The notes under the pieces: generated by a model
Seen by the model: only the letters and a program-made list of their open reading frames with translations
What the model was told of the DNA's origin: nothing
Databases searched by the model: none
DNA from: Maylandia zebra
Taxonomy: Eukaryota; Chordata; Actinopteri; Cichliformes; Cichlidae
DNA: 64,000 nt
Assembly: GCF_041146795.1 (NCBI RefSeq)
Contig: NC_135183.1
Coordinates: forward strand, 15,581,840-15,645,839
Direction: 5' to 3'
Shown here: piece after piece, positions 5,288 to 8,200 of the stretch
Layout: every line of letters begins with the position of its first letter
Numbering within the stretch: the first letter of the stretch is position 1
Made by a program: the position numbers and the translations under genes

Positions 5288-8200
5288 GATGAGTTCCATC
5301 CGTTCATTGAGGCTCTGCTACCCCAGGTTCGTGCCTTTGCCTACACGTGGTTTAACCTCCAGGCCAGGAAAAGGAAGTACTTCAAAAAACATGAGAAGAG
5401 GATGACTAAAGAAGAAGAGAGAGCTGTCAAAGATGAACTACTTGGGGAGAAGGCAGAGGTGGTATAAGTATATTGGATAACTGAAATAAGCATTACTTTT
5501 TTTTTATTTTAAAAAGTTTTTTTTTAACTTTTTAAATTCTAATAATTTTAATTCCAAATCACACAACAGTTGCCTCAAGGTGCTTTATATTGTAAGGTAA
5601 AGACCCTGCAATAACACAAAGAAAACAGAAAACAAAAATCACAACAATCAGACGACCCCCTATGAGCAAGCACTTACTGGTGACAGTGGGGAGTTTGGGG
5701 AGTTTTTAGGACACCCTGATAATAATGAATTACAGTAGTCTGATTTTTATATTTAGCAATCAATGTTTTATATCATACCCATATTATATTGCATCTTCCC
5801 CAATTACACTAAGAATATGCTAGAACAAAGCTGACTTGTTCAGTTAGAGTTTCTGTTTCTTATTCTGTTCCTAGGTGAAACAGAAGTGGGCCAGTCGTCT
5901 TTTGGCTAAGCTAAGAAAGGATATTAGACCTGAATGCAGGGAAGACTTTGTCCTATCAATCACCGGGAAGAAAGCTGCATGTTGTGTCTTATCAAACCCT
6001 GACCAGAAAGGCAAAATGAGACGCATAGACTGTCTCCGACAAGCTGACAAGGTAAATTAAAAAGTTGGTTTGTATTTTCTTTTGGCTGGAGAGATAGAAA
6101 TGCAGATAGTTTTTCTAACCCCAGACTAAAATTGCTGTCAAAGATGTGAAATATCAGGCAGTTTTTAATTAATTAAACTAACTCAGTCTAACTCAGACTA
6201 GCAGTGACATCAACTTTGCCGTCGAAGGTAAGTTTATTTACCTACTGTTTGTACTTGTAGCCGGCTTGTTTCTGCCTGAACTGCACAATCGCTGCTGTGA
6301 GTGGGTTTAACAGCTGATTTTCCTTGTCTTATGAATGCTATTTTCCATGACTTTTTCATTAAAAAGGTTTTTGTGACAATGCAAGGTTGTATCAGGTTTT
6401 TGTTTTTCATGATTTTACATCAAACATGAGGCTAGCAAGAAAAATATATGAACTAACAAAAGTGACCTTCAGCAGAACCAGACTTAGACAGGGAGGTTTG
6501 TTTTATGTGTCTCTGTAAAGCACTTTGAATCACCTTGCTGTTGAATTGTGCTATATAAATAAACTTGCCTTGCCTAATTAAAGGAGGTCAAACAACTCAC
6601 AGCAGCTGAAAATTGGTGGTTAAATATTATAACCTTTCTACTTTTTAAAGATTTCTGATTTTTAGTTAAGAAACTGTCTTATAAATATACCATCACCATA
6701 CTGTCCGTGCCCCTGAACCCTCTGTTCCACCTCTCCCCGTACGTCCTTAAATTTAGTTACAGCTTTTTCTGTTTATTTTTATATTGTAATGAATTGCATC
6801 GCCCGTGTGTACACATTTATCTTTGTGATAGAATAGAATAGAATAGCATAGAATTCAACTTTATTGTCATTGCACATGCACAGGTACAGGGCAACGAAAT
6901 GCAGTTTGCATCCATCCAGAAGTGCTTTAGTGATATAGATATATTACAATATATATTAGCAATAATATAGATATGTGAGTACATTACAGAAATGGGTCTA
7001 TTATGGTATGTTATAATGTACACGGTATGAAGTATGTTGTGAATATTCTATAACTATAAGTATGTACAGGCTGTAGTGAGTACAAGCTATGAACAGGCTA
7101 TGAACAGGATATAAATATGAAAAACTATACAGAATATGAAATAAATAACTTTACAGAAATCTGAGATATACAGCTATACAGAAATGGGAACTATGCAAGT
7201 TGTAAACAGTTGTAGGATTAAAAATTATCGAATGTACAGAATGATTATTTACACAGAGCTATACAGTAGTGCAGTTAAGATAAGTGAGATATAATTCCTA
7301 CAGAGGCTATATAAAGTGCTAGTGGTTGTGAGTGGTGGTTCAGTCCATGTTATTATTGTGTGTTTGAGGGTACAGTTGTCCATTGTGATCATACAAAAGA
7401 GGGTTTTCAGGGAATACTGTTAAATGTACAGTTTTTATACCATATATCAGAACAAGATGTTTAGTGGGATTAAAGTGGTGGGTGGGTTCATTTCCATTTC
7501 CTTACACAATCCAAAGACATGCTTGCAAGGTTAATTAGTGAATCTAAATTGGTTACAATTCTGAATCTGTTCGCCCTGTGATAAAATGGGGCTCTGTATG
7601 TACCCTGCCTGTCAGTCTCTGATAGTCCGTAACTCTGTGTCTTAAGCGGTCAAGGAAAAGGATGGATGCTTGGCCCATTCAGGGGACCAGTTTCACACTA
7701 AACATAGCAAAAGTGAGACTCATGTTTTTAGTCAGACATAAGTGGGGTTTTTTTGCTTTGTTTTTCCAAGGTGTGGAGATTAGACCTGGTGATGGTTATC
7801 CTTTTTAAAGGAATCCCACTGGAAAGCACAGATGGTGAACGGCTGGTGAAAGGAGGCCAGTGCTCCAATCCAGTCCTCTGTGTCCAGCCTCGACACATCT
7901 CTGTCTCTGTCAAGGAGCTCGACCTCTACCTTGCTTACTATGTGCAAGAGAGAGGTATGCACTACATACTACATACTTCAACATTGCTGTTCATGCTGAC
8001 TTTCATGTATACATTTAAATATAGTAGACCTCTGGTAATATTAGATAAAATATGAGATTGCTACATGGTGACGATGCATCGTGCATCTTGTTGTAAAGAA
8101 GAAAAAAAAACTTCTTTCTTTCAAGATTCTCTGTTCTACATTTCTATTATATCAAAATTTGTTCTTATGATTTCAGGATATCCTGGAAAGTTTAACTTTC

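Follow-up and report, generated by a model that had tools for sequence, protein, structure and literature searches.

Introduction

Intron gain is described as very rare in vertebrates (PMC2746811, PMC3151243), and the closest described systems come from fishes. In the receptor genes MC5R and MC2R, gained introns have been reported in fugu, Tetraodon, stickleback and medaka, and the same report gives the zebrafish and tetrapod orthologs as intron-less (PMC3151243). Further gains in this group of fishes are documented in PMC2746811, in PMC12357937 and, for Dag1a, in PMC5216574. For the NFI genes, the published reference point is mammalian Nfix. The 532-bp circNfix derives from Nfix exon 2 (PMC8806771), and RT-PCR products from mouse Nfix measure 606 bp with exon 2 and 75 bp without it (PMC2414869), a difference of 531 bp.

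The gene considered here is an NFI gene of Maylandia zebra. It lies in a window of 64,000 nucleotides from the forward strand of contig NC_135183.1, which is the whole stretch of DNA analysed, and all positions below are counted from its first letter.

Structure of the split DNA-binding exon

The DNA-binding exon of this gene occupies three pieces on the + strand. Exon 2a (5288..5458; 171 bp, phase 0-0) carries codons 1-57 of the DNA-binding exon, exon 2b (5875..6051; 177 bp, phase 0-0) carries codons 58-116, and exon 2c (7771..7954; 184 bp, phase 0 to 1) starts at codon 117 and ends with the first base of codon 178. A first-pass annotation of the window had proposed this division, and when the coordinates and the AG/GT borders were re-read, all of them agreed, with 171, 177 and 184 adding up to 532. 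Two extra introns separate the pieces on the same strand, intron 1 at 5459..5874 (416 bp) and intron 2 at 6052..7770 (1719 bp), each with GT-AG borders. Their phase 0 is confirmed from the sequence, as had been claimed, and the 171- and 177-nt exons are multiples of three. The AG|GTG context is likewise present at both exon junctions (2a/2b and 2b/2c). Its description as a proto-splice context stands for junction 2, where AAG|G fits the published consensus MAG|R, but only in part for junction 1, where the first base of GAG|G does not conform.

The extra introns have the usual appearance of spliced sequence. Pyrimidine tracts, GT-AG borders and an intact frame are found at both, and stop codons occur in all three frames throughout 5459-5874 and 6052-7770. 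Intron 1 also contains a CTGAC motif resembling a branch point, on the + strand about 40 nt upstream of its acceptor. When spliced, the three pieces encode 177 amino acids whose alignment to human NFIC (PDB 9xvd_A; E 3e-108) contains no gap, with 162/177 residues identical. By eye, an alternative donor of intron 1 can be read 3 nt downstream (GTG|GTATAA); its use would insert one Val and bring the total to 535, and both candidate donors look weak. The reading of 532 is preferred because it leaves no gap in the comparison with the paralogs. As judged from these features, both extra introns are probably removed from the nfic mRNA as ordinary GT-AG introns.

Identity and integrity of the gene

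The spliced domain matches the Pfam families NfI_DNAbd_pre-N (PF10524) and MH1 (PF03165), both above cut-off. The best PDB match of the window protein is NFIC at 362 bits, and NFIA reaches 355 bits. Besides the identities to NFIC, the protein shares 161 residues with an nfia-like gene of the same genome (L001, described below), 159 with NFIA and 150/172 with NFIX. The gene is most plausibly nfic, with NFIC as its nearest match by a small margin.

Downstream of the split domain, nine more exons follow on the + strand and end in a stop codon. They are exon 3 (9025..9099), exon 4 (9511..9585), exon 5 (10628..10760), exon 6 (13802..13923), exon 7 (17211..17324), exon 8 (17490..17647), exon 9 (18914..19097), exon 10 (20092..20180) and the coding part of exon 11 up to the stop (20522..20542), which reads SWYLGN*. 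The only full-length query for the C-terminal exons was human NFIC, and these exons are intact as far as QSWYLG. Since nfic runs through nine further exons to SWYLGN and a stop, it reads as an intact gene, not a pseudogene. Exon 1 was not found with a narrow pattern in the 23.6 kb before exon 2a, made up of 18.3 kb upstream of the window and window positions 1-5300.

Two long perfect CA repeats lie within the gene, (AC)48 at 10769-10864 and (CA)34 at 17333-17400. Both begin at intron position +9 after nfic donors, the first behind the end of exon 5 at 10760 and the second behind the end of exon 7 at 17324. CA repeats in introns can affect splicing when they adjoin donors. Exon 7 of mouse Nfix is reported to be alternatively spliced (PMC10241085).

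The window also contains several other elements. Inside nfic intron 6, positions 14557-16389 (+) hold an open frame of 610 aa with a reverse transcriptase domain (RVT_1), presumably a non-LTR element. A second reverse transcriptase frame, of 390 aa, lies at 35492-36664 (-), and the two share a further Pfam match, ALKBH8_N. The 217-aa open frame at 30886-31539 has a helix-turn-helix match (HTH_38) and is possibly a transposase remnant. At 49246-49384, a 33-bp minisatellite of about 4.4 copies sits within two open frames, one per strand, of 152 and 154 aa, neither of which has a Pfam match.

Other NFI genes in the same genome

A protein search of the fish's own genome (962 Mb, 63 contigs) with the NFI domain gave seven matches, which correspond to the three nfic exons of the window and four other NFI genes. 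Each of the four matches query residues 1 to 175 or 176 in one uninterrupted, stop-free exon, and in all four an ag acceptor precedes the domain, which opens with GAT and is followed by a gt donor. The length of this exon is 532 bp in L002, L003 and L004, and 529 bp in L001, where the donor was read by eye three bases earlier. L001 is nfia-like (172/177 to human NFIA), and L002 and L003 are nfix-like (165/172 and 167/172 to NFIX). L004 is presumably nfib-like. Because the four other NFI genes found each carry the domain unsplit, the split is confined to nfic, one of the five NFI genes found in this genome.

NFI relatives were also sought in public genome and viral contigs, where none was confirmed among 46, 6, 86 and 67 pattern matches. 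The idea that NFI genes occur in contaminated bacterial or viral contigs was accordingly dropped for these pattern matches.

A lineage with documented intron gains

The same genome was searched for the MC receptors with a human MC5R query; the search returned 119 matches, with 123 of 520 candidates scored. Among the candidates scored, the best MC5R-like gene, on contig C11, falls into three pieces with breaks near query residues 77 and 140, and the neighbouring MC2R-like gene is broken near residue 140. Receptor matches on C9 (residues 20-313) and C1 (residues 26-313) are each in one piece. At DR|Y, the MC5R junction reads GGACAG|GTAATG ... TCCACAG|GTACGT. These MC5R and MC2R-like splits fall at sites published as gains (PMC3151243), which places the genome within a clade with documented intron gains. 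We infer that the host genome belongs to an acanthopterygian-type group in which several such gains are on record.

Flanking repeats and content of the introns

Both extra introns are flanked by short direct repeats. The identical run across the splice junctions is 5 bases long at intron 1 (AGGTG) and 6 at intron 2 (CAAGGT), compared with 2, 1, 0, 2, 3, 0, 3, 4 and 0 (range 0 to 4) at the nine other nfic introns of the window, a set that leaves out the intron before exon 2a because exon 1 was not found. In a simulation based on assumed splice-site frequencies, the chance of a run of at least 5 is 0.059 and that of a run of at least 6 is 0.019. Three MC5R/MC2R introns with both sides in view, added after the fact, have runs of 7 (computed), 5 and 1 (both by eye). 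Flanking repeats of this kind are compatible with double-strand-break repair by end joining, or with an insertion that duplicated a short target site. The excess is small and post hoc, and a preference for AGGT that arose for other reasons would look similar.

Intron 1 contains an internally deleted fragment of a dispersed repeat at 5554..5740 (+). The first-pass annotation had proposed LINE tails in both introns, which holds in part: its segment at 5550-5705 is a dispersed repeat, more exactly at about 5554-5740. In intron 2, a further copy of 6501-6575 occurs elsewhere in the window (77%), and none is present there for the putative tail at 6828-7425. The fragment in intron 1 has lost its middle and consists of two pieces that belong to a single family; 3 of the 11 compared loci hold the pieces further apart, and the family extends beyond the fragment. 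The two pieces are unequally conserved: among the genomic copies scored for each, identity is 94-100% for the 43-bp piece at 5698-5740 and 77-89% for the adjoining 5554-5693. The repeat may have arrived later than the intron itself.

Origin of the introns

The extra nfic introns were probably gained in ray-finned fishes. Gain is favoured over retention by the unsplit state of four out of four paralogs in the same genome and by the 532-bp exon 2 of Nfix in the literature, so that the direction of change rests on the paralogs together with one published mammalian exon. The human NFIC DNA-binding exon is taken to have the same single-exon structure. Under gain, an ancestral 532-bp DNA-binding exon of nfic would have been split by two spliceosomal introns, which entered at AG|GTG sites, one between codons 57|58 and the other between 116|117, with the reading frame and the domain left unchanged. 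There would have been two insertions, perhaps in one episode, and from their age, which we infer, they would belong to the ray-finned, probably the acanthomorph, lineage.

The first-pass annotation had put gain and retention side by side. Gain is now the favoured side of that alternative, and retention is kept as an unlikely rival. It would require an ancestral chordate NFI gene with both introns, which were kept in fish nfic but lost, perhaps by cDNA recombination, from tetrapod NFIC and from the lineages of nfia, nfib and nfix. Such recombination is established as a way to remove two introns in one step, and the count could be as low as two such double losses, provided that nfic was the first of the vertebrate NFI genes to branch off; otherwise, retention needs up to four of them, each independent. 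An intron-split NFI domain does exist in an invertebrate, since nfi-1 of the nematode C. elegans has 14 exons and its DNA-binding construct contained parts of exons 2-8 according to the published description (PMC1277823). Against this stand the other NFI genes found in the genome, all four of which are without either intron, and the junctions of the extra introns, which carry longer direct repeats than those of the nine other nfic introns.

If the introns were gained, as is preferred here, neither of them has a clear source. Two particular forms of gain are compatible with this explanation. The introns might themselves be mobile elements with splice sites that were inserted whole, as introners or transposons, which seems improbable. 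Transposon-like new introns have been reported in notothenioid slc26a2 (PMC12357937), and a direct repeat of 5-6 bp at each new nfic intron would suit such an insertion. Among the 40 places scored out of 2725 candidates, a few weaker matches (77-79%) to the intron 1 repeat start upstream of 5554, the furthest at 5498, but most begin near 5554. The 5' 95 bp of intron 1 (5459-5553) matched only itself in the genome, in a search that skips very common words and so does not imply rarity, and beyond 5743 only the self match appeared among 40 scored of 1163 candidates. Thus, among the candidates scored, the matches span 5498 to 5743 at most; the repeat is not seen to reach either end of intron 1 and is a fragment of a larger family, which leaves a whole-transposon or introner origin of this intron unsupported there. 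Terminal inverted repeats do not help this reading either, as the longest exact ones in the outermost 60 bases at either end measure only 8 bp in intron 1 and 6 bp in intron 2. The two introns show no cross match with each other.

In the other form, a short exon segment containing AGGT would have been duplicated in tandem and so have made at least intron 2, which we consider most unlikely. At the 3' end of intron 2, a stretch of 17 columns (7707-7723) resembles part of exon 2b (6011-6026), and none of 300 shuffles scored as high; measured against random segments of the window, however, 0.7 to 1.8% scored as high. At the 5' end of the same intron, 12 of 300 shuffles scored as high, and the share of window segments that did so was 4% under one scoring but 60% under the other. 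The corresponding shares for the ends of intron 1 were 26-76%, and six comparisons of whole introns with the three exons gave between 6 and 89%. The search for this signal went through two scorings and several tests, and the two matches of intron 2 disagree in their offsets. The signal of tandem duplication is therefore weak for intron 2, where the shuffle result softens against real window sequence, and absent for intron 1.

Exon 2b as a possible cassette

The position of the new borders relative to the DNA-reading residues raises a functional point. The NFIX-DNA structure shows R116, A123 and K125 reading bases, with R38, K78, K81, Q110 and R121 touching the backbone (PMC12854730). With a presumed offset of 9 between NFIX and nfic numbering, these become R107, A114, K116, R29, K69, K72, Q101 and R112 of the exon, each of which is the expected residue, and all eight are invariant across the five NFI genes of the genome. 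Exon 2b holds the equivalents of all three base-reading residues; that of K125 is its last codon, with intron 2 directly after it. In NFIA, K125E has been described as a loss-of-function mutation in patients (PMC8251549).

Because exon 2b is 177 nt long, has phase 0-0 and contains all the base-reading residues, skipping it would remove DNA reading in frame. The two gained introns might thereby have made a cassette out of the core of the DNA-binding domain of NFIC, with regulated skipping of exon 2b giving an in-frame, DNA-binding-dead and possibly dominant-negative nfic; as a prediction from exon structure, we regard this as very unlikely. If true, it would provide an in-frame form that skipping of the ancestral 532-nt exon could not, since that skip shifts the frame, as noted for Nfix (PMC2414869). 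Splice variants that alter a DNA-binding domain are known from Pax2 of acanthomorph fish (PMC4488758).

Comparison with known systems

In nfic, a probable paired gain affects a highly conserved exon that belongs to a developmental transcription factor, and the four unsplit paralogs of the same genome act as an internal control. This offers a clean setting in which to study the timing, mechanism and effect of intron gain, and the new exon borders would allow the DNA-reading part of NFIC to be removed in frame. Among the papers listed in literature searches, some of them with listings cut short, no description of a split nfic exon 2 was seen, though one may exist in print.

A close parallel is found in the MC2R and MC5R gains of acanthopterygian fishes (PMC3151243). 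There, as probably in nfic, several new introns entered one previously unsplit vertebrate coding exon. The published account gives further likenesses, in that two of three conserved introns lie between codons, insertion sites are MAG|R-like, as at junction 2 of nfic, and repeats occur inside the introns in some species. Unlike these receptor genes, the nfic host is a transcription factor whose DNA-binding domain is cut, and its split is known here from one species. The slc26a1 and slc26a2 gains of Eurypterygii and notothenioids (PMC12357937) are also lineage-specific to teleosts, with several introns per gene. Two of the notothenioid introns are described as transposon-like, whereas no such source is established for those of nfic.

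Serpin genes of ray-finned fishes likewise show co-occurring new introns in one gene, with canonical GT-AG borders; they also have a proto-splice context, which in nfic is complete at junction 2, and five of seven lie between codons (PMC2746811). Those introns are reported as 68-178 bp long and without known repeats, in contrast to the 416 and 1719 bp of the nfic introns, the first of which contains a dispersed repeat. Compared with mammalian NFI exon 2 (PMC8806771, PMC2414869), the domain is the same, with 532 bases in the published Nfix exon, and what differs is its division, with one exon there and three in nfic here. The nfic split is real and, with its internal control, most probably adds one more case to a known type of event, lineage-specific intron gain in fishes.
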